Shown: piece after piece, positions 724-59,093 of the stretch | How the letters are laid out: every line of letters begins with the position of its first letter | Numbering within the stretch: position 1 is the first letter of the stretch | IMG/VR virus record: IMGVR_UViG_3300045772_000033 | Coordinates: 1 to 64,000 of that record | Length of the DNA: 64,000 bases | Source: a virus | Reading direction: 5' to 3' (one strand) | Translations under genes and position numbers: made by a program | The notes under the pieces: generated by a model | Database searches by the model: none | Told to the model about the DNA's origin: nothing | What the model saw: only the letters and a program-made list of their open reading frames with translations

Positions 724-866
724 TTCTCACCCCCACCGAGCGCCAGGAGATACTTCGCCGGCTCAAGCACGGCCCAACTCTTCCCAAAGACGAACTGGTC
801 AAGTACGCGAACAAGTTGCGCCGGGAAGTTCTGGCTCGGCGAATAGGAAAGCAGGAAGCACATTGA
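720..866 (+). CDS. very small hypothetical protein (GTG start)
   Basis: 48 aa, starting with GTG, which overlaps the previous stop. The product is a basic, mostly helical peptide (TERQEILRRLKHGP then LRREVLARRIGK). Its stop overlaps the TTG start of the next gene. No family recognised. Support comes from the chain of four-base overlaps on both sides and an uninterrupted reading frame. Confidence 0.5.
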   Translation: MILTPTERQEILRRLKHGPTLPKDELVKYANKLRREVLARRIGKQEAH

Positions 867-1222
867 GCCCAAGACCCCGTCTCCCCAAAACGCAGTGGAA
901 CGAAGATAGCATCCGTGTCGAGGTCAAGGCCGCAGGTCTAATCGACGAGCCGGAGAACGTCAAGGTCTTTGAGGCTTGCCACGCTGAGATGGGCGCCGTG
1001 AGACTCCGGTTGATGCTGGGCTGCTACGGCCCTGGTACGACAACCAAGCCTAAGCCAGCCTACCGATGGTTACTTGGAGAGAGCGCAACAGTTCTTTGTC
1101 GCGATCTGGAGGTCTGTGATTGGTTTCGCTCAGAACTGTTGGCGTGGCTGAAATCTCTGGATGGCATTCAGTTGGCGAGAGTTGATGATGATGATGAAGC
1201 GGGAGAGAATACACTTCGATGA
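863..1222 (+). CDS. hypothetical protein (TTG start)
   Basis: 119 aa. Begins with TTG in a TTGA overlap with the preceding gene. No family recognised. It contains one Cys-rich stretch (VFEACHAEMG) and an acidic tail with a GAT repeat (DDDDEAGE). Its stop region overlaps the ATG of the glycosyltransferase at 1219, so it is probably co-translated with it. Confidence 0.5.
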   Translation: MSPRPRLPKTQWNEDSIRVEVKAAGLIDEPENVKVFEACHAEMGAVRLRLMLGCYGPGTTTKPKPAYRWLLGESATVLCRDLEVCDWFRSELLAWLKSLDGIQLARVDDDDEAGENTLR

Positions 1223-1827
1223 CATTGCCTTCGCCCACTCCCGTCTGTACCTTCGTCGTCTCGGCCTTCAATCGTCCGGTCGAACTGAAGCTATGCTTGC
1301 TTTCGCTTGTTTGTCAGAGTCGTGTTGACTGGTCGGCTATTGTGACGGACAACGCTATGGATTCAACCTACCGTGATCTGAATCGGGATGCGGTTGAGTG
1401 GGTAGGTGATCCGCGAATACAATATACCTACACCGGGGATCAAGCAAAAAACTGCTACATCTCGGCGAATGTTGGCGCGCAGGAAGCTGAGGGTGAATGG
1501 CTGGCGTTTCCCTCCGACGACGGATATGTTTGCCCTTGGTATCTTGAACGGATGCTCCGGCGCGCCGCCGATCTTGACCTGGTCTATTGCGATATAGTGC
1601 TTGGCTCTGCGCAGTCACATCGCGTTCTAAGCCAGCAACCGCGTTGTTGCGAAATCGACAAGACAGGGTTCAGCGTTCGACGGGAATGGTTCAATCGAGT
1701 CGGTGGATTCGTGATCGAGAACGTGGATGGCGGCGCTTCGGCGGCTGACGGCCAGTTCATTGAGCGTGTGGTGGCTGCCGGAGCGAGGTACGGCAAGGTA
1801 GATGAAGTTCTTGTGGTTCATAACTAG
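1219..1827 (+). CDS. family-2 glycosyltransferase (GT-A fold)
   Basis: 202 aa, short for the family. The N-terminal CTFVVSAFNRPVELKLCL is the nucleotide-sugar-binding first strand and helix of GT2 enzymes. AFPSDDGYV (about residues 95-103) supplies the DxD-like metal-binding acid pair, followed by WYLERML. The usual membrane or C-terminal extension is absent, so it is probably a soluble transferase for a surface or virion component. Donor and acceptor cannot be read from sequence. The gene ends just before a run of AAAGGG units into which an insertion element has jumped; the next resident gene, at 3780, is another glycosyltransferase. Confidence 0.8.
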   Translation: MTLPSPTPVCTFVVSAFNRPVELKLCLLSLVCQSRVDWSAIVTDNAMDSTYRDLNRDAVEWVGDPRIQYTYTGDQAKNCYISANVGAQEAEGEWLAFPSDDGYVCPWYLERMLRRAADLDLVYCDIVLGSAQSHRVLSQQPRCCEIDKTGFSVRREWFNRVGGFVIENVDGGASAADGQFIERVVAAGARYGKVDEVLVVHN

Positions 1828-1840
1828 GAAAGGGAAAGGG

Positions 1841-1873
1841 AAAGGGAAGGGAATTATACACTTGACTTCCGTA
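1841..1873 (+). repeat. target-site duplication and left inverted repeat of IS1595-family element
   Basis: Bases 1841-1848 (AAAGGGAA) are an exact direct copy of 3766-3773. Bases 1849-1873 are the left terminal inverted repeat. They match the reverse complement of 3741-3765 at 22 of 25 positions, with a perfect core ACTTGACTTCCGT. Confidence 0.92.
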
Positions 1874-1890
1874 AGGAACTCAAGTATCTT
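1862..1890 (+). promoter_or_regulatory. transposase promoter inside the left IS end
   Basis: TTGACT (1862-1867, within the inverted repeat) and TATCTT (1885-1890) are 17 bases apart. The predicted start lies at or next to the ATG at 1897 and there is no Shine-Dalgarno sequence. The transposase message is therefore probably leaderless, which would keep its translation low. Confidence 0.5.
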
Positions 1891-1896
1891 TAAGTT

Positions 1897-2814
1897 ATGA
1901 GCAAGAGTACAATCAGCACGTTCGAGTTGTTTGCCCTGATTCCTGACGCGGAAACCGCAAGGCTCTATCTGGAGTCGAGACTTTGGCTTAATGGCGTTAC
2001 CTGTCCGACATGCGCGGGCCGTGAGCGCATTACCAATCGCAAGGGTGATTTTTACCGTTGCAACCGTTGCGAGACCACTTTCACGGTTCGTACTGGCACG
2101 ATCTTTGAGCGGTCGCATGTGCCGCTCCATAAGTGGATTTACGCCATGTACCTTGGGGTTACTGCGCGGAAAGGTATCAGTTCGATGCAACTTTCCAAAG
2201 AGATCGGCGTGACTCAGAAAACCGCGCGGTTCATGTTGCAGCGGCTTCGTGAGGCTTGCAGCGGGAAAATAGACAAGCTGTTTGGCTTGATCGAAGTTGA
2301 TGAGTGCTTTGTTGGCGGCAAGGAAGCCAATAAACATGAGTCCAAAAAACTCCGGGCCGGTCGCGGATCGGTGGGCAAGACTGCCATAATCGGTCTCAGG
2401 GAACGGGGAGGAAGGACGATTGCCTTTCCAGTTGAGAACACTGACAAAGAAAATCTGCAAGGCGCGATCCTGAATAACGTAGAGATTGGCTCTCAAGTTA
2501 TGACGGATGAGGCCAGCGGCTATCAGGGCATGGACGGCTTGTTCTACTCTCACGCGACGGTCAATCATAGCGCTGGCGAGTACAGCCGGGGCGATGTGAA
2601 CACGAACTCTATTGAGTCCGTGTGGGCATTGCTCAAGCGTGGCGTCTACGGTACTTGGCATCACATCAGCGCCAAGCATGTTGCTCGGTACGTCAATGAA
2701 GTCACCTTCCGGCTTAACGCGGGCAACGTGGCTAATCACACTTTTGACCGTCTGGACTCGTTCATCCGCGCAGTTGACGGACAACGTCTGACTTACGAAA
2801 GGCTTACAGCATGA
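1897..2814 (+). CDS. IS1595-family transposase (ISXO2-like)
   Basis: 305 aa, normal length for the family. Residues about 34-57 form a zinc ribbon (CPTCAGRE ... CNRC). A helix-turn-helix region follows (SSMQLSKEIGVTQKTARFML). The DDE catalytic core shows LIEVDECFVGGKE (first Asp), MTDEASGYQG (second Asp) and NTNSIESVWALLKRGVYGT (Glu). All catalytic residues are present and the frame is intact, so the enzyme should be functional. It recognises the inverted repeats at 1849-1873 and 3741-3765. Its stop overlaps the ATG of the next small ORF. Confidence 0.93.
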   Translation: MSKSTISTFELFALIPDAETARLYLESRLWLNGVTCPTCAGRERITNRKGDFYRCNRCETTFTVRTGTIFERSHVPLHKWIYAMYLGVTARKGISSMQLSKEIGVTQKTARFMLQRLREACSGKIDKLFGLIEVDECFVGGKEANKHESKKLRAGRGSVGKTAIIGLRERGGRTIAFPVENTDKENLQGAILNNVEIGSQVMTDEASGYQGMDGLFYSHATVNHSAGEYSRGDVNTNSIESVWALLKRGVYGTWHHISAKHVARYVNEVTFRLNAGNVANHTFDRLDSFIRAVDGQRLTYERLTA

Positions 2815-2939
2815 AAGAAACTCCGCAAGTGTTGGACGTGATAACCGATGTAGTGTTGGCGTACAGGCCAACACCGAAGTCAAAGGCAGCGAAGAAGAGA
2901 AAACGGAAAGCGGACAAAAATGCAAAAACTTCTCGTTAG
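2811..2939 (+). CDS. small basic passenger ORF of the IS element
   Basis: 42 aa, starting in an ATGA overlap with the transposase stop and ending inside the start of the next gene. The first half is neutral (VLDVITDVVLAYRP), the second strongly basic (AAKKRKRKADKNAK). No family assigned. It may act as an accessory DNA-binding peptide for transposition or simply couple translation to the downstream gene. Confidence 0.5.
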   Translation: MKETPQVLDVITDVVLAYRPTPKSKAAKKRKRKADKNAKTSR

Positions 2940-3732
2940 CTTTTCGGGGGGTCGATCCTCCGCTTACATGGCGTGGCGTATTAAGAATGAATGGGCCTCT
3001 ACCCACGAACTTGCTTTTGTCTTCGCCAACACAGGTAAAGAACGAGAAGAGACGCTTGTTTTCGTGCAACGGTGCAGCGATGAATGGGGTCTGGGAGTTG
3101 TATGGGTTGAGGCTGTGGCTCACGCCGAACGAGGAATTGCTTCGACTCATCGCATTGTGGATTTTTCCACTGCATCCCGAAACGGAGAGCCGTTTGAAGA
3201 CGTTATCAAAGTCTACGGTATTCCGAATATGAATTACTTGCACTGTACCCGCGAACTCAAAGCCAATGCTATTCGTAGCTATATGCAGAGCATCGGCTGG
3301 AAAGGGTATCTGACCGCCCAAGGAATTCGCATTGATGAGCCAAAGCGCCTCAAACCGAAGGAAGGGGTCATTCGACCTTTGGCAGAGAATTGGCCCACGA
3401 CCAAACCGGAAATATTAGATTGGTGGAAAGATCAAAGGTTCGACCTGGGTTTGAAGGACCATCAGGGGAACTGCGACTGCTGCCACAAAAAACACATTCC
3501 AAAACTTGTTAGGATCGCGCAGGAAAACCCCAACTCCTTTGATTGGTGGGGCCAAATGGAGCATCAATATGGGCTGGCCGGACATAATGAAGACGGTACC
3601 CCTCGCACCTTTTTCCGTGGTCATAGGTCGGCCTCCGATATTGTGGAGATGTCCAAACTCATGACCCTTCCACCCCTTCCCGACGAAGATGAAGACGCCG
3701 GATGCAGCGAAAGCTGTGAGGCTTTCGTATGA
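2920..3732 (+). CDS. PAPS-reductase-family / adenine nucleotide alpha-hydrolase-like protein (IS passenger)
   Basis: 270 aa. The N-terminus has the PP-loop LLVSFSGGRSSAYMAW, the SGGxxS ATP/PAPS-binding signature of the phosphoadenosine phosphosulfate reductase superfamily. HCTRELKANAI resembles the family's C-x-x-x-(L/F)K region, and CDCCHKKHIPKL near residue 185 is a likely metal or Fe-S ligand set. Members activate substrates by adenylation or handle sulfur; phage and transposon versions are mostly uncharacterised. It lies wholly inside the IS boundaries, which makes it a cargo gene rather than a resident phage gene. Its substrate is unknown. Confidence 0.8.
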   Translation: MQKLLVSFSGGRSSAYMAWRIKNEWASTHELAFVFANTGKEREETLVFVQRCSDEWGLGVVWVEAVAHAERGIASTHRIVDFSTASRNGEPFEDVIKVYGIPNMNYLHCTRELKANAIRSYMQSIGWKGYLTAQGIRIDEPKRLKPKEGVIRPLAENWPTTKPEILDWWKDQRFDLGLKDHQGNCDCCHKKHIPKLVRIAQENPNSFDWWGQMEHQYGLAGHNEDGTPRTFFRGHRSASDIVEMSKLMTLPPLPDEDEDAGCSESCEAFV

Positions 3733-3740
3733 AATCGAAA

Positions 3741-3773
3741 AACGGAAGTCAAGTATATAAATCCCAAAGGGAA
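3741..3773 (+). repeat. right inverted repeat and target-site duplication of IS1595-family element
   Basis: Bases 3741-3765 are the right terminal inverted repeat. Bases 3766-3773 (AAAGGGAA) repeat 1841-1848 exactly. The duplicated octamer also serves as the Shine-Dalgarno sequence of the gene starting at 3780. Confidence 0.92.
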
Positions 3774-3779
3774 TTGACA

Positions 3780-6122
3780 ATGACCCTCGCCATCCACGCC
3801 GCGCGGTACTTTACCTCTGCCACGATTCTTGACGTGACTGCGCTGGTTCGTGAGTTGGCCGCGGTATCAGGCTCTGCGTCTCTTTCTCTTCAGGTGACCA
3901 ATCAGACTTTTCGTACCGATCCCCATCCCGGTGTGCAGAAGCATTTCTTCATCGATTACACGTTGGCTGGCCGGCGCGCGCAGCTCACGGTTATGGAGGG
4001 CGAAGCAGTTGTGATCGGAGAACCGGCCAACCGGACAGTCCGCCAGGCCGCCGTGCGTCCCGCTCACTTTACTGACATCATCATCCCGACTTACAACAAT
4101 GTGGCCCTGACCGCGGCGTGCTTTCGGTCGATCAAAGCCAACACTGCGCCGGGAACCTTTCGTGTGATCTGGGTGGACAACGGCTCAGCGGCTTCCCCCG
4201 CCGCCGAGGACATGACTGCCGCGTCCGTCGAACTCGATGGTGTGGACCGGATATGCGTCTATCTACCCACGAACCTCGGCTTCGTTGGCGCGGTGAATGA
4301 AGGATTGCGGCTTTCGGATGCCCCGTCGGTCTGCTTCCTGAACAATGACACTGTGGTCACCCCCCGTTGGTTGGAAAAGCTGACCGCCGTCCTCTATTCC
4401 CCTTCTTCCCCCAGCCTCGGCATCGTAGGCCCGATGACGGCCTACGACCGCCCTGGATTCTGCGACTCGCCTCATAATCTGAACCTGCACTCCGGGCTTC
4501 TTCCTGAAGAGGCCCGCCAGTGGACCCTGGATCGGCTGAGTGCGGAACTGGAAGCGCGCTACTCCGGCCAGTCTCACCCAACAGAGTTTGTGGCCTTCCT
4601 CTGCGCTCTCCTGAAACGCGAGACTATCAGCCGTGTCGGCTATCTTGACACCAGGTTCGACATGGGGATGTGGGATGACGTGGACTACAACCGATCAGCT
4701 ATAGCTAGTGGCTACTCGGTCGCACTCGCCCTCGACACGTGTATCTATCACCGGGGTCGCAGCACTTTCGCGGTCGTCGAGCAGTCAGAGAATTTGGACG
4801 TGGGCGGACTGCTGAGCCGAAACAAGGCGTATCTCGACGAGAAGTGGCGGGACTACACTCCCGGTACGTGGACTTTACGGAAGAAGGCCAAGGCGGTGAT
4901 GCTGGCACTCTACCCGTATCAAGGACAGGGACTTGACGCGTGGATCGATCATGGGGCGGGAATGACCTACACGGCTGCCAAGGCGGCTGGAGCCGACCTG
5001 GACTTCATTGATATGAAATCCCTCCGCGACGATGAAGATCTGCGGCATCGCTTGCGCGGGTATGATCTTGTCTGCTTCGGACTGAAGTCCTCCTATTACG
5101 CGCTGGGGATGAAGATCGCGGACATCGCCAAGGAGCAGGGATCGCGAGTGCTGGTTGGGGGATACCACGTAACCGCTGCTCCTGAGCAACTCCTCGAAAA
5201 CCCCAAGATCGACTGGGTGATGCACGGCGAGAGTGAGATTACTTTTGCCAAGTTCCTCGCTGACCCGGACTCGTTCCCCTGCGAGTTCTGGGGCGAGAAG
5301 CCCGCTGATCTCGATGCGCTCCCGTGGATGGACCGCTCGATGTTCCGTGACCCCACTGAGCCAGTCGAGGGCTGGTGGTATCCAGTGCCAGGGCAGCGGC
5401 GCGCGAAGATGGTAAGTGTAATGGCTGCAAGGGGTTGCCCGTATGGGTGCCTTTTTTGCCAACCTATCGAACGCAATCATTTTGGTCTGAAACTTCGTCG
5501 GCGCTCAGTGGACAGCATGATCGCGGAAATGCTCATGCTCAAGGAGAAGTATCAGCCCGACTGCATCATGATCCACGACGACACTTTTTTGCTCCAAAGA
5601 AAGTGGATCGAAGAGTTTATTGAGAAATATCCCCAGGTTGGGCTGCCATTCTGGGCCGCGGGCCGGGCCGACGGTATCTGCCGTGATCCTGACCTCGTGA
5701 AAGGTCTGATTGGCGTTGGGTGGGAGCTAATCTCCGTTGGGTTTGAGTCCGGCAGTCAGCGTATTCTGGATCTTATGAAGAAGGGAACGACGGTTGAGCA
5801 GAATCTGGAGGCCGCGCGGATTGTGCATAGTCTGGGCGGGAAACTTTACGGGAACTACATGCTGGGGACTCCGTGGGAAACTCATGAGGACACGGATGCC
5901 ACTATTCGCATGGCTCAAGAGATCAACGCGGAGATGCCTTCGTTCGCCGCGTTCGCGCCGTACCCAGGAAGCGGTCTAGGCCAGCGGTGCATCGACGAAG
6001 GGTTGTCATTGCTTGATAGGAACAGCTACGACCGTTGCCCGTCCGGGATAAAGTGCAGAGGTGTGGACTACGAATTCGTTTACGGGCGGTTAGCGGGATT
6101 TCACCGCGGGGTGCGAATCTGA
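3780..6122 (+). CDS. fusion: family-2 glycosyltransferase + B12-binding domain + radical SAM enzyme
   Basis: 780 aa. After about 95 residues of unknown N-terminus comes a GT2 domain (about 99-330): FTDIIIPTYNN, the metal-binding FLNNDTVVTPRWLEKL, and a C-terminal WDDVDYNRSAIASGY. A cobalamin-binding Rossmann-like domain follows (about 385-500; VCFGLKSSYYALG, VLVGGYHVTAAPEQLL, VMHGESE). Then comes a radical SAM domain with MAARGCPYGCLFCQP (C-x3-C-x2-C near 553-560) and ISVGFESGSQRILDLMKKG. All signature residues are present. B12-dependent radical SAM enzymes often methylate or rearrange unactivated carbons; fusion to a glycosyltransferase suggests modification of a sugar or glycan. The start at 3780 is preferred over the in-frame ATG at 3729, which lies inside the IS. 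AAAGGGA at 3766-3772 is its ribosome-binding site. Confidence 0.88.
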   Translation: MTLAIHAARYFTSATILDVTALVRELAAVSGSASLSLQVTNQTFRTDPHPGVQKHFFIDYTLAGRRAQLTVMEGEAVVIGEPANRTVRQAAVRPAHFTDIIIPTYNNVALTAACFRSIKANTAPGTFRVIWVDNGSAASPAAEDMTAASVELDGVDRICVYLPTNLGFVGAVNEGLRLSDAPSVCFLNNDTVVTPRWLEKLTAVLYSPSSPSLGIVGPMTAYDRPGFCDSPHNLNLHSGLLPEEARQWTLDRLSAELEARYSGQSHPTEFVAFLCALLKRETISRVGYLDTRFDMGMWDDVDYNRSAIASGYSVALALDTCIYHRGRSTFAVVEQSENLDVGGLLSRNKAYLDEKWRDYTPGTWTLRKKAKAVMLALYPYQGQGLDAWIDHGAGMTYTAAKAAGADLDFIDMKSLRDDEDLRHRLRGYDLVCFGLKSSYYALGMKIADIAKEQGSRVLVGGYHVTAAPEQLLENPKIDWVMHGESEITFAKFLADPDSFPCEFWGEKPADLDALPWMDRSMFRDPTEPVEGWWYPVPGQRRAKMVSVMAARGCPYGCLFCQPIERNHFGLKLRRRSVDSMIAEMLMLKEKYQPDCIMIHDDTFLLQRKWIEEFIEKYPQVGLPFWAAGRADGICRDPDLVKGLIGVGWELISVGFESGSQRILDLMKKGTTVEQNLEAARIVHSLGGKLYGNYMLGTPWETHEDTDATIRMAQEINAEMPSFAAFAPYPGSGLGQRCIDEGLSLLDRNSYDRCPSGIKCRGVDYEFVYGRLAGFHRGVRI

Positions 6123-6160: not shown

Positions 6161-7009
6161 ATGGCTGACTCAAAAATTCTTCTTGGTTTTCTCTCGGCAT
6201 ATCACCCGTCCCGCTGGCATCGTCGCCAAATCCTGCGGGACCAGTGCCTCAAGAACTCTCCCCTCCCTTACAAGTTTGTTTTTGGCGACGAGCCACATCC
6301 AGGAGATCGAGATCGCTGCGGAATACCTGATGATGAAATCCTTCATGCGCCAGGGTCCGACGCCAAGAAGTTTTTGCATTTGAAAGATCAAGCCCTTTTT
6401 CGCTACGCATTGGAGAATGGGTTCGATTACTGCCTACGCTGTACAGACGATACGTGGGTTTACCCGGATCGCATCATCAAGGCCGGTCTTGAAGCCTTCG
6501 ATTACGCTGGAGCGTTTCCCTGTAAGTTCAAACTCGGCGGCACTTTCCCGATCCCATTCAAGTACCTGAATTTCGCCCACGGGGGATGTGGTGTGTGGCT
6601 TTCACGTAAGGCGATGGAGATGCTGGTCGCGGATGAGTGGAACGAGCACTATTTTGAAGACTGGCCGGAGAAGATTGATGTCGGTTTTGGACTGACTTAC
6701 TCACGTCCCGATCATCTGTGGGATGATTTGTGGATGGGAGAGGTTCTCCAGGGCAACCTCACTTATTCGGACCCGCTGCGTGGCCAACCGTGGGACTCAT
6801 ACCGCGCCAACGGCATCGCCGTCTTTGAAGATGAAATGCTTTTTTGGAACGATGATCCTAAGCGCCCGCTGACTATTCACGATCCGGGGGTGAGCAAGCC
6901 AAACGCGCCGGAGATGGATGAACTGGAGGCGCAGGCCAAGCAGCGTGGTGTGGCGATGAGCATGGCAATGAGGCGTCAGGCCAGCGCCGAGGAGGTTTCC
7001 AATGTTTGA
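6161..7009 (+). CDS. GT31/fringe-like glycosyltransferase
   Basis: 282 aa. KDQALFRYALENGFDYCLRC then TDDTWVYPDRI resembles the galactosyltransferase/fringe (GT31) pattern in which an Asp-rich metal-binding motif follows a conserved helix. HGGCGVWLSRKAMEML matches the family's (S/G)G-x-G-x-x-LSR region, and DHLWDDLWMGEVL resembles the acidic ED-V-x-x-G motif. GT31 enzymes are mainly eukaryotic; bacterial and phage versions are scattered. An SD-like GGAGG lies about 10 bases before ATG. Together with the GT2 at 1219 and the fusion at 3780 it forms a glycan-modification cluster. The assignment rests on pattern only. Confidence 0.6.
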   Translation: MADSKILLGFLSAYHPSRWHRRQILRDQCLKNSPLPYKFVFGDEPHPGDRDRCGIPDDEILHAPGSDAKKFLHLKDQALFRYALENGFDYCLRCTDDTWVYPDRIIKAGLEAFDYAGAFPCKFKLGGTFPIPFKYLNFAHGGCGVWLSRKAMEMLVADEWNEHYFEDWPEKIDVGFGLTYSRPDHLWDDLWMGEVLQGNLTYSDPLRGQPWDSYRANGIAVFEDEMLFWNDDPKRPLTIHDPGVSKPNAPEMDELEAQAKQRGVAMSMAMRRQASAEEVSNV

Positions 7010-7544
7010 AAACGACTTTTCTCCGCAGCGCCAGGTTCAGCGCGTCGGTGATTTCTTCGATCTCCGCAAGGAATACCGGCTGAACGCTCTGCTCTCTTTG
7101 CGCCGGCGCGAAGGTCTGCCTTCTCCTGTTGACGCTGAGGGCCACCCTCTCGAAACTCGCATGGACGATCTTGGCAACGCGACTTACCACAGTGCCGACG
7201 GCAAGCAGGTCAACCGCGTCTTCTTTGCCGGTGCCGGGCGCGACGGCAAGCCCGGTGCGTTCGCGGTTGGCCAGCGGAAAGGGATGGACAAGGCCGAAGC
7301 CGATGCCCAGTGGGGGTCAATCGACGGCGTCGGCGAATTTCAAATTCTGGATGTGGCAGAGGACGGCCGCAAACTCGCCGGCGAGATGCTTGATCTCAAA
7401 CGCGATGCCGGAGCCTTCGAGATGGCCGAACGCATCAACTTCGGCCCGGCCGGCGAGCAGGCGCCCGGATTCGAGTTGGATGGCACTTCGGACGCGGAAG
7501 TGGACGCAAGGTTGCAGGAGTATTTGAAGAAGGGACCACAATGA
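7002..7544 (+). CDS. hypothetical protein
   Basis: 180 aa, acidic, not recognised. It looks like an alpha/beta domain (FEMAERINFGPAG, EVDARLQEYLKKG). The start overlaps the end of the glycosyltransferase at 6161 by 8 bases, and the stop overlaps the ATG at 7541. It sits in the same operon as the glycosyltransferases, but nothing in the sequence links it to their chemistry. Confidence 0.6.
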   Translation: MFENDFSPQRQVQRVGDFFDLRKEYRLNALLSLRRREGLPSPVDAEGHPLETRMDDLGNATYHSADGKQVNRVFFAGAGRDGKPGAFAVGQRKGMDKAEADAQWGSIDGVGEFQILDVAEDGRKLAGEMLDLKRDAGAFEMAERINFGPAGEQAPGFELDGTSDAEVDARLQEYLKKGPQ

Positions 7545-12508: not shown

Positions 12509-15394
12509 ATTCCCCTCGATTTAAATCACGTTGAGAAATTCTTCCGGCGGCTCAAAATTCGTGACCGTGATGACGGGGCTTTTATCCCATTTACGCTTCG
12601 CCCGCAGCAGCAGGAAATTTTTCAACTCGCTAAGGAGCATCTAGCGCGTCGTCGGCGACTATACATCATATTCCTCAAAGCAAGGCGTTTAGGAATATCT
12701 ACGATTGCGACGGGCTTGGGGCAAGCGCACTGTATCGCTCACCCAGGCTCCATGGCGCGTTGTGTTGCGCAAAACGCTAAGGTAGCCGCTGCCAATTTCG
12801 ATATGGCCAGTAGCTTCTTTAAAGACTGCCGTGATCTTTATCCTGGCGCGCCTAAGCCCACCAAGTCAGTCTTAATATGGCCACATTCCGATGGGCACGA
12901 CTCAACCTTTGAGCATCATACAGCGGCTACCGTCCATGGCCAGCGTGGGCTCACTTCCTCGTTTCTGCACATGACTGAGGCCGCTTTCTACGAAAGGGAA
13001 GGGGTTTTTACTTCTCTGATGAACACGTTGAGTATGGATAAAAATAACATCTGCTTAGTGGAGACTACAGCTCACGGAATGGAAGGGCCGGGTGAGGCGT
13101 ACTATCAATACTGGGAAGCGGCGATGGCCGGCGACAACGAGTTTCTTCCTATTTTTCTTCCGTGGTGGGAAGATCCTGCGTACATTCTTCCTGCTGAGTT
13201 AGCTCAGGATGCCCCGCGTGACGAGTATGAAAAGTTTTTGATGAGCGGCATCAAGCATTGGAAGACAGGAAAAACAGTTTACCTCGGTAAGGATCGCATT
13301 GCCTGGTTCCGTGAAACTCTTTCGGCACGGTGCGAAGGAATCTTGGAGAAGTGGCGTGAGGAAATGCCCTCGACTCCAGAAGAAGCCTTTGTTGCTACCG
13401 GCAACCCGGCTTTCACCATCGAGGAGATGCAATTCGCGCAGAATGCCATTGTAAAAATCCCGTGGCAGGGCCGGTGTGTGCTGACCGCCGATCAAAAACA
13501 CGGCCAACTTCAAAAAGGAACAGATGGCCCGCTTGTCGTCTATGAGACCCCACAAAAAGGTCATCATTACTTCGCCGGCGTGGACTCAGCGCGCGGCGAA
13601 GAATCCACGATGGCTCCCGGCGATTATGCGGCAATAGTGGTCTGGAACGCTGAAACTGGCGACTTAGCGGCAAGGTATGTGTCGCGTGTTTCTCCGGAAG
13701 AGTTGGCCCCTGTGTCCGCCGCACTCGGATATTATTTCAACGGTGCGATGCTGAACGTTGAGCTGAACAACATCGGATACGTGACGATGAAGGCTTTGCG
13801 CGACACCTACTATTACCCCAATCAGTATCTCTGGAAAGGTCGCGATGATCGTAAGGACAGGTCAAAACAAGGCCAGGCTTACGGCTTTGAGACCAGTGAT
13901 CGCTACCGCAAGATGATGTTCTCGCTGTTTCGCACAGCGTTGCATGAAAAAAGAGTTGTGACCAAAGACAAAATCTTCGTCGATCAGATGAAGAAGGCCA
14001 AGCTGGAGATGAACTGGCGGTGGACTGTTTCGGTTGGCCACGACGATGTTTTGATGTGCCTCAATCCAAAGGAGTTAGTGGAAACTGAGGCCGGTTTTAA
14101 ACCTATAAGCGAGATTCGTTCGAGTGATCTTGTGCGGACGCACACAGGTGAAATTCATCAGGTTCAAGGTGTCATGTCTCGTGAAGTGAATGAGGAGATG
14201 GTTCACGTCGGAGTGATGGGAAATTCTGAACCTGTGCGAACGACGGGCAACCATCCTTACTACGTGTGCCGGTACGAGTGGACCCGGCTGAAGGGCACGC
14301 GTAAAGTCACCAAGAATCAAGTTGAGTTCGCATCGTGGAAAGCTGCCGTAGACTTGCGTCTAGGGGACTCGGTCCTGTTTCCAAAGCGGAAGAGCTTGCC
14401 GTCGGCCAGACTCCCCGGCGATCAGTTGTGGATTCTCGGTTGGTATTTAGCCGAGGGATCGTCTTGTCCGCGTACTCGCAAGGGGAAGATGGGCCGTGGA
14501 GTTGCGTTCAGCCTAAGTTCAGCAGAACGAGATGTGGCGAAACGGCTATGTGAAGTGTTGCTCAAATACGATCCACCTAGCCGCTCTAACCAAAAGCCTC
14601 CACGTGTTCAAGAGATAGCGGGTAAGAACGCAATTCGAGTGGTCTACTCTTCGCGCTATTGGCACGGTTTCTTTACGAAGCTCGCGGGAGGATTGCAACA
14701 GGTTCGGAAAATTCATCCCTCTGTTTACAATTGCTCCGGGCTGTTACCGCTGGCGGGAGCGTTCATGTCAGGCGATGGATCACAACCGAGGGGGCAACGC
14801 AACGCGATCCATGCGAGTAGTACCTCGCGTGTACTAATTCATCAGATCAGGCAGATATTGATCGATGAGGGAATCTGGGCCACCATCAGCAAGCCGAAGA
14901 GCCAGGACATTTGGACTCTATGCGCCTCCGCCGAGTTCATCGAGCGATTTGTTGGCATATCGAAGTTTCATTCTGTAGAGCGGAAATTTCACAAACGGCA
15001 CGTTGTTGAGACGGACGAGGGCTTCTGGGCGCCGATCAAATCTCTGGAACTGGTTCCTTACTCAGGTCCGGTGTTTAATCTCGACGTTGAGGGGGATCAT
15101 ACTTATCAGGCACAGGGAGTGGCGGTTCACAACTCAGGATTTCTCGGTTGGATCGCTTTAGAACAAAATCACCCGGCCCCTTGCCGATCCATCGCCCCCC
15201 GTAATGTCATGCTCACCAAAGAGGAGATTGAAAACGCCGGTTTCTCTCCGGTGCGCGGTCAGATGCCTGAATGGTTGCGAGATCCGAGTGTGACGGGTTC
15301 AGGGATGCTGCTGACCAGTGGGAACGATCACCTGAAGAAGCTGGAAATCTACAGTAAGAAAAAGCAGCAGCGAAACCGCCTTGAATGGGTCTAG
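12509..15394 (+). CDS. large terminase subunit with in-frame intein and non-standard start
   Basis: About 961 aa as translated; about 602 aa after removal of a 359-aa intein. The ATPase part has the Walker-A-like IIFLKARRLGISTIA, within the first 65 residues, and Walker B-like FLHMTEAAFYE. The nuclease part has FAGVDSARGEE (first Asp) and SVGHDDVLM, interrupted by the intein, before SGFLGWIALEQ. No ATG, GTG or TTG occurs in frame between the upstream stop (12494) and 12716, yet the conserved ATPase motif lies in that stretch. The best start is ATT at 12509, seven bases after a perfect AAGGAG (12496-12501). The enzyme packages DNA into the prohead. Confidence 0.9.
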   Translation: MPLDLNHVEKFFRRLKIRDRDDGAFIPFTLRPQQQEIFQLAKEHLARRRRLYIIFLKARRLGISTIATGLGQAHCIAHPGSMARCVAQNAKVAAANFDMASSFFKDCRDLYPGAPKPTKSVLIWPHSDGHDSTFEHHTAATVHGQRGLTSSFLHMTEAAFYEREGVFTSLMNTLSMDKNNICLVETTAHGMEGPGEAYYQYWEAAMAGDNEFLPIFLPWWEDPAYILPAELAQDAPRDEYEKFLMSGIKHWKTGKTVYLGKDRIAWFRETLSARCEGILEKWREEMPSTPEEAFVATGNPAFTIEEMQFAQNAIVKIPWQGRCVLTADQKHGQLQKGTDGPLVVYETPQKGHHYFAGVDSARGEESTMAPGDYAAIVVWNAETGDLAARYVSRVSPEELAPVSAALGYYFNGAMLNVELNNIGYVTMKALRDTYYYPNQYLWKGRDDRKDRSKQGQAYGFETSDRYRKMMFSLFRTALHEKRVVTKDKIFVDQMKKAKLEMNWRWTVSVGHDDVLMCLNPKELVETEAGFKPISEIRSSDLVRTHTGEIHQVQGVMSREVNEEMVHVGVMGNSEPVRTTGNHPYYVCRYEWTRLKGTRKVTKNQVEFASWKAAVDLRLGDSVLFPKRKSLPSARLPGDQLWILGWYLAEGSSCPRTRKGKMGRGVAFSLSSAERDVAKRLCEVLLKYDPPSRSNQKPPRVQEIAGKNAIRVVYSSRYWHGFFTKLAGGLQQVRKIHPSVYNCSGLLPLAGAFMSGDGSQPRGQRNAIHASSTSRVLIHQIRQILIDEGIWATISKPKSQDIWTLCASAEFIERFVGISKFHSVERKFHKRHVVETDEGFWAPIKSLELVPYSGPVFNLDVEGDHTYQAQGVAVHNSGFLGWIALEQNHPAPCRSIAPRNVMLTKEEIENAGFSPVRGQMPEWLRDPSVTGSGMLLTSGNDHLKKLEIYSKKKQQRNRLEWV
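14057..15133 (+). mobile_element. intein with LAGLIDADG endonuclease in terminase
   Basis: 359 residues from Cys1 (CLNPKELVETEAGFKPISEI, splicing block A) to a C-terminal FNLDVEGDHTYQAQGVAVHN followed by Ser+1. Block B is TTGNHPYYV. Two dodecapeptide motifs of a LAGLIDADG homing endonuclease are visible: LGWYLAEGS and LAGAFMSGDGS. Nucleophile Cys1, the block B His, the penultimate His, terminal Asn and Ser+1 are all present, so protein splicing should work. It interrupts the terminase immediately after the catalytic HDD of the nuclease domain. Confidence 0.93.
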
Positions 15395-16421: not shown

Positions 16422-16574
16422 CTGAATCCTCTTTCCAATCCAGGTCATGCAAGGAACAGCCATCGAATTTCCTAACGATTTATAAACTGGGCCGTCGGCC
16501 GGGGGCTTGCCGTTGATTCGGATCTGGCTGAAGTAGTTGTCTGGAAATCCTTGTAACCGGCAGCATTCAAGCTA
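16402..16574 (-). pseudogene. C-terminal remnant of the cytosine methyltransferase
   Basis: Directly after the amber codon at 16574-16572, the same frame continues LECCRLQGFPDNY and KSLGNSMAVPCMT, the end of motif IX and motif X of C5 methyltransferases, then stops at 16440. One base out of frame, the conserved ending resumes as IGKRIQLVD and runs to a stop at 16402. So both a stop and a one-base deletion separate the usual C-terminus from the main ORF. This tail overlaps the convergent gene ending at 16421. Confidence 0.75.
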
Positions 16575-18593
16575 AAGCGGGGTCAGCCGACGGACTTGCA
16601 TGGCTGACCCCTGACCTCCGATCACAGAAGTTTTCCTCGGCGTTTCTGCATCGCGTGTTTGCTGCAGTAGCCGTTTGCATGGTACTTCAAGTTGCAATTC
16701 TGGATTACGCATGTCCTTTGTGGATTCGATTCTGTTTCTTTCCTCGCAGTGACAAATTGATTGTCCTTGAGGATCAACGGATCGCCCCACTTCTTGAAGC
16801 GTTGATAGTGCTTGTCGCAGTATCCCAAGCCCTTCTGAGGCTGTCCACAGACTATACAAAAACGTGAATTGTGATGTCCTTTCATGTGGCAACTTCGACA
16901 AAGTCGTTCCAAGTTCTCTGAATTGTTGTTCTGCCAGTTTTCGTCTTTGTGGTGAACATCCACATTTTCTGAAGACCCACAGCGCGCGCAAGGTCCAGGA
17001 GGGCAAATTTTTCTCGCTCTGCGATGCGAGGCCATCCAGCCTACTTTTGTTAGTTTCGGCTTGGCCTCGGTCGCTTTTCCAAAACATATCAGATTGCAGT
17101 ATTTCTTCTTGCCGAATGAGGTTAAGCATTCCAAGTCCCCATTCAGAGAACGACGTCTCTCCAACTTCTTTCCGCAGGATTCGCAGAATTTCAGTGGAGT
17201 CGGTTTTAAGTGTGCGCTCATTGAAACCATCATAATCCAAGGTATCAAGCAATGCAACCCGCGCTGGTTGTGATTCGCCTTCGCGCCCACGGAGGTTGAA
17301 GGCTACTGCCTGCGGCACCTGTCGCGCTTCGACTGTGTATGCCTGGTCGTCGGTTCTGATTCCCACGCCATCGGGACCGGCCAGCGGATTCTCGCAGATG
17401 GCGCGCTCCTGAATGGCGATTGCCACGCACTGCGGTTGCCCTCCTCCAGTTGGGGATTGCTTGGCGATTGTGAGCGCGCAATTGGCATTGAATTTTGGTG
17501 TTTGCTCTGTCGTGAATGCCACTGCCACCTGCCCGCCGGCATTTGCGTGGCTGCCGGAGAAGTTCATCGAGCGCAGGGTCGGGGAAATTTCTCCGGAGTC
17601 GAGGCCTGAGTCTTTGCAGGAGAAAGCGATTGCGTGAACGTCATGCCCGTGCATCGCGTTCAGTGTGAAGCTAGGCCCATCTTCCTGAGCGACGCTGTTG
17701 CCCTTGCTGCCCTGCATATTTAGCATGGCCACCGGCACCAGCGGCGTCCCAATTGGCTGTGCCTCTTCTGCTTCGTTCCAGTATCCTCTACCCGAAGCGA
17801 CGAAAGTCTCGCTCTCGAAGTCCAGCCGTCCGTTTGGACCGCCATGCGCGTTGCAGGCCGTGGCTACGTCAATAGGTCCGCTAGTGTTGTTGCCGCCGAA
17901 GCCGGTGGGGACAAGGCAGTCCTGGTCGCGGGTGTCGCCGGGTCGGTCGAAGCCTCGGCCACTTGCTCCAATGCAAGGCGCAAGGTCATAGGTAGGGCTT
18001 TCCCTCTTTTCTCGGCTCGGCGGAGTATCCCCCGACAGGCTTTGGCGCTCAAATAGAACCGCTGCGGCACGGCGCCAGTCTCCAAGATGTCCGACAAGGA
18101 AGACGCGACGGCGGCGCTGTGGAACTCCAGCGTATTGAGCGTCACAAACGCGATAGGCGAACCCATACCCGATTTCCCCCAACGCCCCGATGAAGGCTCC
18201 AAACGTCCGTCCTCCATCAATTGACAGGACACCGGGGACGTTCTCCCAGACCAGCCATCGGGTCCGTAAGCGTTCAGCAAGTCGAGCGAATTCAAGGGTG
18301 AGGTTGCCACGAGGGTCAGCCAGTCCAGCTCGGAGACCGGCGACGGAGAAACTCTGGCAGGGGGTTCCGCCAACGAGGATGTCGGGGCGGCAGGGGAGAT
18401 CGTCGAGCGTGATTTTCGTGAAGTCGCCATAGTTCTTTACTCCTGGGTAATGATGAGCGAGGACTGCGGAAGGAAATTTGTCGATTTCGGCAAAGCCAAC
18501 AGGTTGCCAGCCGAGCGGCCCCCAGGCAACCGAAGCTGCTTCGATTCCAGAGCAAATTGACAAGTAGGTTAGTGGATGGAAGCCTTCTGGCAT
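16572..18593 (-). CDS. DNA (cytosine-5) methyltransferase, Dcm type, interrupted
   Basis: 673-aa frame. The N-terminal 200 residues carry a full catalytic core: motif I (LSICSGIEAASVAW), motif IV with catalytic Cys (GGTPCQSFSVAG), motif VI (WENVPGVLS) and motif VIII (QYAGVPQRRRRVFLVG). The target-recognition region follows to about residue 450. The frame then runs through DNA that encodes an HNH protein in another frame, resumes methyltransferase sequence at GSAMQVRRLTPL (motif IX) and hits TAG. A six-base CTTTAG insertion relative to the usual PLEC motif explains the stop. The protein lacks motif X and is probably inactive unless RNA processing or readthrough restores it. ATG at 18593 is used. 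Confidence 0.75.
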   Translation of the reverse strand: MPEGFHPLTYLSICSGIEAASVAWGPLGWQPVGFAEIDKFPSAVLAHHYPGVKNYGDFTKITLDDLPCRPDILVGGTPCQSFSVAGLRAGLADPRGNLTLEFARLAERLRTRWLVWENVPGVLSIDGGRTFGAFIGALGEIGYGFAYRVCDAQYAGVPQRRRRVFLVGHLGDWRRAAAVLFERQSLSGDTPPSREKRESPTYDLAPCIGASGRGFDRPGDTRDQDCLVPTGFGGNNTSGPIDVATACNAHGGPNGRLDFESETFVASGRGYWNEAEEAQPIGTPLVPVAMLNMQGSKGNSVAQEDGPSFTLNAMHGHDVHAIAFSCKDSGLDSGEISPTLRSMNFSGSHANAGGQVAVAFTTEQTPKFNANCALTIAKQSPTGGGQPQCVAIAIQERAICENPLAGPDGVGIRTDDQAYTVEARQVPQAVAFNLRGREGESQPARVALLDTLDYDGFNERTLKTDSTEILRILRKEVGETSFSEWGLGMLNLIRQEEILQSDMFWKSDRGQAETNKSRLDGLASQSEKNLPSWTLRALWVFRKCGCSPQRRKLAEQQFRELGTTLSKLPHERTSQFTFLYSLWTASEGLGILRQALSTLQEVGRSVDPQGQSICHCEERNRIESTKDMRNPELQLEVPCKRLLQQTRDAETPRKTSVIGGQGSAMQVRRLTPL
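16579..16611. other. perfect 10-bp inverted repeat at methyltransferase motif IX
   Basis: GGGGTCAGCC (16579-16588) and GGCTGACCCC (16602-16611) are perfect complements around a 13-base loop. They lie just 3' of the HNH gene on the - strand and within the methyltransferase motif IX region, next to the amber codon. This may be RNA structure near the insertion junction or a chance outcome of the coding sequence. Confidence 0.4.
16622..17221 (-). CDS. HNH endonuclease inserted in the methyltransferase gene
   Basis: 199 aa from ATG 17221 (17230 or 17233 also possible). FCESCGKKLERR opens a first zinc knuckle. The core CARCGSSENVDVHHKDENWQ then LERLCRSCHMKGHH is a classical HNH nuclease with structural zinc cysteines. 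Further knuckles (FCIVCGQPQKGLGYCDKH, CVIQNCNLKYHANGYCSKH) probably bind DNA. It lies in a different frame from the surrounding methyltransferase, between its recognition domain and motif IX. That position suggests an intron-borne or invasive homing endonuclease; no intron core was identified by eye. Confidence 0.85.
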   Translation of the reverse strand: MSAHLKPTPLKFCESCGKKLERRRSLNGDLECLTSFGKKKYCNLICFGKATEAKPKLTKVGWMASHRRARKICPPGPCARCGSSENVDVHHKDENWQNNNSENLERLCRSCHMKGHHNSRFCIVCGQPQKGLGYCDKHYQRFKKWGDPLILKDNQFVTARKETESNPQRTCVIQNCNLKYHANGYCSKHAMQKRRGKLL

Positions 18594-18602
18594 AATGCTC
18601 AA

Positions 18603-57758: not shown

Positions 57759-58985
57759 TTAGGACAACGGATCGACGCCACCTGGCAGAGCCAGCCCTGC
57801 CGGTTCTGGCAGCGCCTTGCCTGCGATGCCTTGCAAGTCACCGAATACACCGCTGGTGGAAGTGAGCACGCGCTCGATCTGCGCGGTGCGCTTGGCCCAC
57901 TGGCGCTGCATAGCCTTCTGCTCCGCCGTCAAGTCTTCTTGCATCGTCGTGAACGCTTCAACTAGAGCCTCGATGCGACTTTTGAACTGTGGGCCGGTCA
58001 CGTAGCCATATACCTCTTCGGCCTTGGTGGCCATGCCCGCCTGTACCTGCCGGGTATTATGCACCGCCAGCAAAGTCGCCCGGAGCGCAAACGCTACTGA
58101 GATGGCCGCGACCGGAGAGCATACCCACACGCTGTCGATGCAACCGAATTGCGATGTGCCGAGTTCTTCCGGCAGCGCAGCGGAGACGATCACCAGTGCG
58201 TCAGCGTGGGCTTTGCGCCCATCGTCGCGGAGCTTCGACAGCCAGCCGTCGCTCCAGTGCTTCGTACGCTTGGACTCCCACAGGACCATGCCGCACGCGG
58301 CACCCGACGGCGCGCTCACGCCTTGGGTGATGTCTGCGCCGTTCACACCCTTGGCAACTTCGTTGATGGTGTCGTAGGGGAACTTGCCGCGCAATTGCTG
58401 CTCCAGATCAAGCTCCTGAACCTCACCTTGAAGCTGCTGGCTGCCCTGTTCGATCTTCTGTTGCAATTCGTTGATCTTGGTTTGCAACGATTGAAGGGTA
58501 GTGTCCTTCTCAAGCAACTTGAGACGGTTGGCATCCTCGGCATCGCGGCGCGCGGCTGTGCGCGCAGATTCAATACCGGCGCTGACCTGTTTTTCAACAG
58601 TCAATTCCAACTCGCGCTCTCGATCCGCCAACTCGCGCTCTTTGCGCATCGCTTCAGCCTGAGCCTTCTGAGCAGTGGCGATCTTCATATCCGCAGCGGA
58701 TAACTGCGCGCGCAGGCCAACCTGTGCGTTCACGGCTTCTTCGGCCTTTTGCTGTGCTGCTCGAATCTCTTCGGCTGCTTCAGCCTTGGCGGCGATCTTC
58801 CCTGACGCTGCGGCTTCGATGCGCGCTTTGGTGACGGCATCATCGGCGCGTCTATTCGCGGCGGCAAGGTCTTCGGCTGCCTGTTTCTTCGTTGCCTCCA
58901 GCAGCGGCCCCGCTAGGGCGGCTACATCGAGAGCAAACACCTCTCCGCATTTAGGACAAGTCACACCTGAAAACTCGTTTGCCAT
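57759..58985 (-). CDS. DUF2130 protein (restriction-endonuclease-fold candidate)
   Basis: 408 aa from ATG 58985. VTCPKCGEVFALDVAALAGP (N-terminal zinc knuckle), a long coiled coil (AEEIRAAQQKAEEAVNAQVG; DTTLQSLQTKINELQQKIEQ), then GMVLWESKRTKHWSDGWLSK, the conserved DUF2130 signature with E-S-K-R-T-K like a PD-(D/E)XK active site. Usually a bacterial protein of unknown role; here it sits in the replication operon. Confidence 0.75.
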   Translation of the reverse strand: MANEFSGVTCPKCGEVFALDVAALAGPLLEATKKQAAEDLAAANRRADDAVTKARIEAAASGKIAAKAEAAEEIRAAQQKAEEAVNAQVGLRAQLSAADMKIATAQKAQAEAMRKERELADRERELELTVEKQVSAGIESARTAARRDAEDANRLKLLEKDTTLQSLQTKINELQQKIEQGSQQLQGEVQELDLEQQLRGKFPYDTINEVAKGVNGADITQGVSAPSGAACGMVLWESKRTKHWSDGWLSKLRDDGRKAHADALVIVSAALPEELGTSQFGCIDSVWVCSPVAAISVAFALRATLLAVHNTRQVQAGMATKAEEVYGYVTGPQFKSRIEALVEAFTTMQEDLTAEQKAMQRQWAKRTAQIERVLTSTSGVFGDLQGIAGKALPEPAGLALPGGVDPLS

Positions 58986-59016
58986 TTTGTTCACCTGTCG
59001 AACTGCGTTTGATGTG

Positions 59017-59093
59017 TGGTGGACGCGGTAGGACTTGAACCTACAACCTGTCGGTTAAGAGCCGAATGCTGCTACCAATTGAGCTACGCGTCC
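59017..59093 (-). tRNA. tRNA-Lys (anticodon CTT)
   Basis: Complete cloverleaf on the - strand: 7-bp acceptor GGACGCG/CGCGTCC, D arm with GGTA, anticodon loop CTCTTAA (CTT, Lys), T arm GTAGG-TTCAAGT-CCTAC, discriminator A and encoded CCA. It reads AAG codons, used heavily by the phage's basic proteins. Its 5' end directly abuts a terminator. Confidence 0.95.

Follow-up and report, generated by a model that had tools for sequence, protein, structure and literature searches.

A gene of a soil phage encodes, in one polypeptide, a GT2 glycosyltransferase domain, a B12-binding domain and a radical SAM (rSAM) barrel, and its product is probably a bifunctional glycan-tailoring enzyme that combines sugar attachment with radical modification and is carried in a hypervariable island that changes the sugars of the phage. 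The gene lies in a window of 64,000 nucleotides, the whole stretch of DNA analyzed here, which is part of a virus record of 77,872 bases. Family matches to a terminase large subunit (TerL), a major head protein, a DNA polymerase, a primase and a helicase agree with the assignment of this DNA to a phage in the original prediction, which had been made from the sequence alone, and the record contains a further phage family match to an exonuclease.

The fusion gene is an uninterrupted frame of 780 aa on the plus strand, starting at the ATG at 3780 and free of stop codons to 6122 (Table 1). Its product consists of four parts, namely a DnaJ-C11-like N-terminal domain, the GT2 domain, the B12-binding domain, and the rSAM barrel. 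The Pfam families Glycos_transf_2 (residues 117–222 in the numbering of the longer frame from 3729, with Glyco_tranf_2_3 extending to 352), B12-binding (409–509), and Radical_SAM (567–728) all match this one protein above their cut-offs, a combination far beyond chance. Thus, the predicted three-domain architecture is supported by Pfam for each of its domains, and the prediction of one intact frame with three signatures was borne out, as FLNNDT, PF02310 and CPYGCLFC were all located in it. Membership of the GT2 domain in PF00535 is well above the threshold (59.4 vs. a cut-off of 23.3), and the acidic motifs NND and DDVD are present within FLNNDT (4335–4352) and MGMWDDVDYN (4662–4691), respectively. 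The cluster motif CxxxCxxC is found as CPYGCLFC at 5436–5459. All 16 aligned sequences retain its three cysteines and also match both PF04055 and PF02310, which rules out the loss of cluster ligands in relatives that had been considered as an objection. No transmembrane segment was seen when the sequence of the fusion protein was read. The N-terminal domain recurs on a separate GT2 gene of the viral contig L008, where the match to PF11875 is also below the cut-off (E 1.3e-4).

Table 1. Features of the fusion gene and of the island that contains it (positions in the window)
Feature	Position	Strand	Basis
Conserved left island flank	863–1222	+	Found in 8/8 siblings
Upstream GT2 gene of the island	1219–1827	+	PF00535, 2.5e-9; homologue in L190, 60%
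8-bp target duplication, left copy (AAAGGGAA)	1841–1848	.	Sequence read
IS1595-type transposon	1849–3765	+	24-nt inverted ends; DDE_Tnp_IS1595 (PF12762), 2.4e-43
8-bp target duplication, right copy (AAAGGGAA), at the expected position of a ribosome-binding site for ATG 3780	3766–3773	.	Sequence read
Fusion gene (N-terminal domain, GT2, B12-binding, radical SAM)	3780–6122	+	Open frame, Pfam; start set by upstream transposon end and duplicated target site
N-terminal domain, weak match to PF11875 (DnaJ-like_C11_C)	3780–4067	+	E 0.0067 (window), below cut-off
GT2 glycosyltransferase domain	4077–4784	+	PF00535 (Glycos_transf_2), 5.6e-16; PF13641; relatives
Linker between the GT2 half and the B12/rSAM half	4842–4904	+	Comparison with the separate L008 genes
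B12-binding-type Rossmann domain	4953–5255	+	PF02310 (B12-binding), 2.9e-10, 40.5 bits vs. cut-off 32.1; 16/16 aligned sequences match
Radical SAM barrel	5427–5912	+	PF04055 (Radical_SAM), 3.1e-15; Cys invariant in 16/16; model pLDDT 90.7
Downstream probable glycosyltransferase	6161–7009	+	Fringe/GT31-like by eye; in 6/8 sibling islands
Conserved right island flank	7002–7544	+	Found in 8/8 siblings
Terminase large subunit with intein, downstream island anchor	12716–15394	+	phrog_2, 9.6e-12; LAGLIDADG_3 above cut-off, Intein_splicing below; homologue in 23/24 siblings

The longest ORF that covers the fusion gene starts at 3729 and ends at 6122 (797 aa), and its first 17 codons consist of the right end of a transposon and the duplicated target site. 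The inverted ends of this element (1849–1872 and 3742–3765, 24 nt, 92% complementary) enclose a transposase gene (1897–2814) and a PAPS-reductase-like passenger gene (2920–3732); with its inverted repeats, its IS1595 DDE transposase and a perfect 8-bp target duplication, as is usual for this family, it belongs to the IS1595 type. As the 797-aa ORF takes its first codons from the transposon, the ATG at 3780 is likely the true start, as originally predicted, and a start at 3729, inside the transposon end, was rejected. In the L008 GT2 gene, the aligned N-terminus likewise begins near this ATG, and the duplicated target site keeps the sequence in front of it in place. The element is absent from all eight sibling regions read and has no near match among plasmids. 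A minus-strand ORF in this region (1627–3321, 564 aa) overlies coding genes and was taken as spurious.

To collect relatives, viral contigs were scanned with three queries (the protein and the rSAM and GT2 alignments), one scan of genomes was added, and local profile searches followed. The rSAM module is found in approximately 19 other viral records at pairwise identities of 55–71%. Nine loci (L003, L004, L005, L012, L013, L015, L016, L018, and L039) encode it together with a GT2 domain in one polypeptide in the reverse order, rSAM-GT2, and five more (L014, L017, L021, L027, and L030) carry a third domain in addition, which in L014 matches PF11316 (Rhamno_transf). The stop-to-stop frames of these five, 939–974 aa long, read as B12-rSAM, GT2 and a Rhamno_transf-like glycosyltransferase. 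Elsewhere the rSAM gene is separate and usually near a GT2 gene, which lies directly upstream in L011 and L036 and is separated from it by a P-loop-like gene in L008 and by several genes in L002; the rSAM gene of L019 has no clear GT2 partner. A methyltransferase joined to a P-loop kinase-like domain adjoins the rSAM gene in L003 (9054–10001, by profile search) and L002 (2513–3439). Among the relatives found, the order GT2-rSAM in a single protein occurs in the window only, that is, in one contig.

A maximum likelihood tree unites the 14 rows of reverse-order fusions (support 96/89) and places them beside the unfused L011 and L036 genes, with support of 100/99 for the resulting group of 16. 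The window sequence falls outside this clade, near L008 and L002, with support of 83/86 for its exact place, which indicates at least two joining events of the GT2 and rSAM parts, with the domain order reversed between them. For the GT2 half of the window protein, too, the closest match is in the L008 contig (63%, locus L025). The window TerL matched none of the 18 tested records with rSAM relatives and none of its other genes matched the loci of these records, so that the gene has moved between unrelated phages. Cultured phages yielded one match among 50,697 records, the remote gp36 of Streptomyces phage SF3.

The island that carries the fusion is delimited by flanks conserved in the sibling phages and is a hypervariable glycan region upstream of TerL, with the fusion as one of several alternative contents. 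In L191 and L195, the flank genes are approximately 5 and 20 bases apart and thus form an empty site, and L190, L192, and L197 have methyltransferase- and GT2-like genes between the flanks (by eye). At the same site, L193 and L194 contain an 8-kb set of glycosyltransferase-, WecB-, RmlD-, epimerase-, and methyltransferase-like genes, and a GalE-like gene also occurs among the sibling islands (all by eye), as does a ThyX-like gene in L194. The island appears to build sugar decorations. Two more glycosyltransferases had been predicted within 3 kb of the fusion, and the upstream one is a GT2 by Pfam; the downstream one, assigned by eye, has no match in Pfam, PHROGs, or NCBIfam. None of the 24 sibling records contains the fusion gene; most of these are fragments, and its absence is firm only where the island could be read. 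The reading as glycan modification is thus strengthened by the opposite-order fusions, by the glycan island, and by a cellular gene pair in clusters of the lipopolysaccharide (LPS) type (see below), but the gene is accessory cargo and not a fixed trait of these phages.

Beyond the island, the major head protein has approximately 70 relatives in viral contigs, many with >90% identity, and the 24 sibling records are taken from among these. A search for the host returned one remote match to this protein, from Myxococcus phage Mx9 (26%), and the matches to the DNA polymerase were too broad. The intein of TerL is matched over its full length in G004 and G022 and is lacking in most siblings, and the TerL of G018/G024 has an apparent insert elsewhere, near residue 220. 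An apparent intein-like insert was also seen by eye in a 1000-aa portal-like protein of L003 (18513–21515). A DUF2130 protein (57759–58994, minus strand; 1.1e-63) adjoins the replication genes and a tRNA-Lys gene (59017–59093), and a cytosine-5 DNA methylase of 676 aa is encoded on the minus strand at 16572–18602, its best Pfam stretch covering only residues 12–176.

The radical SAM barrel is confirmed both by the profile and by a structural model of the rSAM half (pTM 0.89) that matches known radical SAM enzymes. The closest solved folds are AprD4 (Z 31.3) and MgmA (30.1), a near tie, followed by OxsB (28.0) and then CysS and TsrM. In NCBIfam, all 16 sequences match HpnJ (TIGR03471), which is also the best match of the window protein, with a score (120.4 vs. 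a cut-off of 577.6) so far below the threshold that an identification as HpnJ was rejected. Scores against the AprD4 family (NF033070; 42.6 vs. 500) and B12_rSAM_oligo (TIGR04295; 36 vs. 400) are low as well, and the window sequence stays below every curated equivalog cut-off. The model of the reverse fusion of L003 was poor (pTM 0.43), and no domain contact was read from it. An alignment that mixed the full fusion with loose glycosyltransferase and rSAM pieces misaligned some of the glycosyltransferase rows and was left out of folding.

Across 84,980 genomes, the sole match above 40% identity is to contig L039, which itself looks viral. The next matches are stand-alone rSAM genes (32–39%) in polysaccharide-type clusters of Omnitrophota, a deltaproteobacterium, an archaeon, and Elusimicrobia; given these identities and the scores below the family cut-offs, the reaction of known enzymes cannot be transferred to the phage protein. 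At three loci from the Omnitrophota search (L202, L203, and L206), the rSAM gene directly abuts a GT2 gene whose product is 30–33% identical to the phage GT2. Wider stretches of three Omnitrophota clusters (L212–L214), annotated by eye without profile search, include heptosyltransferase-, O-antigen-ligase-, WecA-, and epimerase-like neighbors. A count of glycosyltransferases near the cellular rSAM genes was rejected as evidence, because they are equally common near remote B12-rSAMs (11 of 18 vs. 48 of 75), and we therefore place weight on the homologous GT2/rSAM pair instead.

In the proposed mechanism, the GT2 domain would transfer a sugar from a nucleotide sugar to an acceptor in the cytoplasm. 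SAM cleavage at the 4Fe-4S cluster of the B12/radical SAM domain would produce a radical, either on the newly transferred sugar or on one that the chain already contains, and this sugar would be methylated, stripped of a hydroxyl or ring-rearranged, so that the island would change the sugars built by the phage. Virion proteins are the acceptor we lean to, with a case that is evenly balanced, because the island is situated among head and packaging genes and the protein lacks transmembrane segments. A host surface glycan is a plausible though less favored target, and the sugar-nucleotide gene sets of the siblings fit both. We tentatively propose that a phage enzyme attaches a sugar, which its B12/radical chemistry subsequently rearranges or C-methylates, that phages thereby display sugars made by no host enzyme, and that the parts for this have been joined at least twice in opposite orders. 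Phage glycosyltransferases are common, and their products are mostly unknown. The fusion of GT2 with radical SAM points to the chemistry that should be sought, namely an unusual sugar modified by a radical, and its occurrence in two opposite orders indicates that the steps of the two domains are linked. That unrelated phages have fused these parts in the reverse order suggests that phages make chemically unusual sugars. The fusion thus allows the display of radical-made sugars by phages to be tested with a single gene, and it opens a route to the function of an uncharacterized radical SAM group in bacterial surface-polysaccharide clusters.

Other chemistries and substrates have to be weighed against this proposal. 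A version of the proposal with a different chemistry, overlapping with it in likelihood, is that cobalamin binding has been lost from the B12-type domain and that the protein acts as a sugar dehydratase or epimerase of the AprD4 kind instead of a methyltransferase or an enzyme that rearranges the ring. AprD4 is the top structural match, if only just ahead of MgmA; we still regard this as doubtful, as the B12-binding family scores above its cut-off in the window and matches all aligned sequences, and the AprD4 family score is less than a tenth of its threshold. It is also unlikely that the two domains belong to one pathway and act on different molecules, with the GT2 on a glycan, the rSAM half on a lipid carrier, a protein or an amino acid, and the fusion serving joint expression only. 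B12-rSAM enzymes do act on lipids, peptides, proteins and nucleotides (PMC13142503; MgmA and OxsB are examples), and other genes stand between the GT2 and rSAM genes of L008 and L002, but the repeated joining in opposite orders, the cellular pair in polysaccharide clusters, and the action of HpnJ and AprD4, the proteins nearest in sequence and fold, on an attached sugar favor a shared sugar substrate.

It is improbable that the fusion arose by misassembly or that the gene is a functionless passenger in decay. The domain order of the window is known from one contig, and a transposon has inserted directly in front of the gene. The domains show no frameshift or join between them, however, and read through the junction in one frame with every motif intact. 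L008 is the contig closest to both halves, the same pair of domains is also fused in other viruses, and the target duplication has preserved the sequence before the start codon. Least probable is that the target is phage DNA and the protein makes or attaches a sugar on modified bases. The cytosine-5 DNA methylase gene and the ThyX-like gene of the L194 island would fit such a role, but no hydroxymethyl-pyrimidine pathway was found among the part of the ORFs that was scanned, and an island that varies and is empty in two siblings is unlike an essential DNA modification.

Components of this system have counterparts in phages and cells. Viral radical SAM enzymes with a B12-binding domain have already been reported (PMC9723712), and pelagimyophages have glycosyltransferase-rich hypervariable regions, some with radical SAM gene cassettes (PMC7029224). 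Radical SAM genes in such regions are thus known; those phages differ from the one studied here, no fusion is mentioned in the passages of that report consulted here, and we found no paper on a glycosyltransferase-rSAM fusion in the literature searched, an incomplete library. Streptomyces phage SF3 gp36 is a B12-binding radical SAM protein of a cultured phage that stands alone, with 27% identity and no glycosyltransferase fused to it. In the Omnitrophota clusters of the LPS/O-antigen type, a homologous rSAM adjoins a GT2 as in the phage, but as separate, cellular genes. MgmA, the glutamine methylase of MCR (9ccb), has the same two-domain fold and is the top sequence match from the PDB; unlike the fusion, it methylates a protein side chain and has no glycosyltransferase. 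AprD4, the radical SAM 1,2-diol dehydratase of apramycin and the closest solved fold, was solved with its aminosugar substrate, paromamine, although the identity is only 19% and its family score is far under the cut-off. HpnJ makes a cyclitol ether from bacteriohopanetetrol glucosamine prepared by HpnI and HpnK; the glucosamine on which it acts is linked to the hopanoid by the glycosyltransferase HpnI (PMC12583986). In HpnJ and AprD4 alike, the sugar has been attached before the enzyme acts on it, which may provide a lead for the mechanism of the phage protein, short of proof. HpnI and HpnJ differ from the fusion in being separate proteins with a deacetylase step between them and a hopanoid acceptor, but share with it the proposed order of events, in which a glycosyltransferase attaches a sugar that a radical SAM enzyme then converts.
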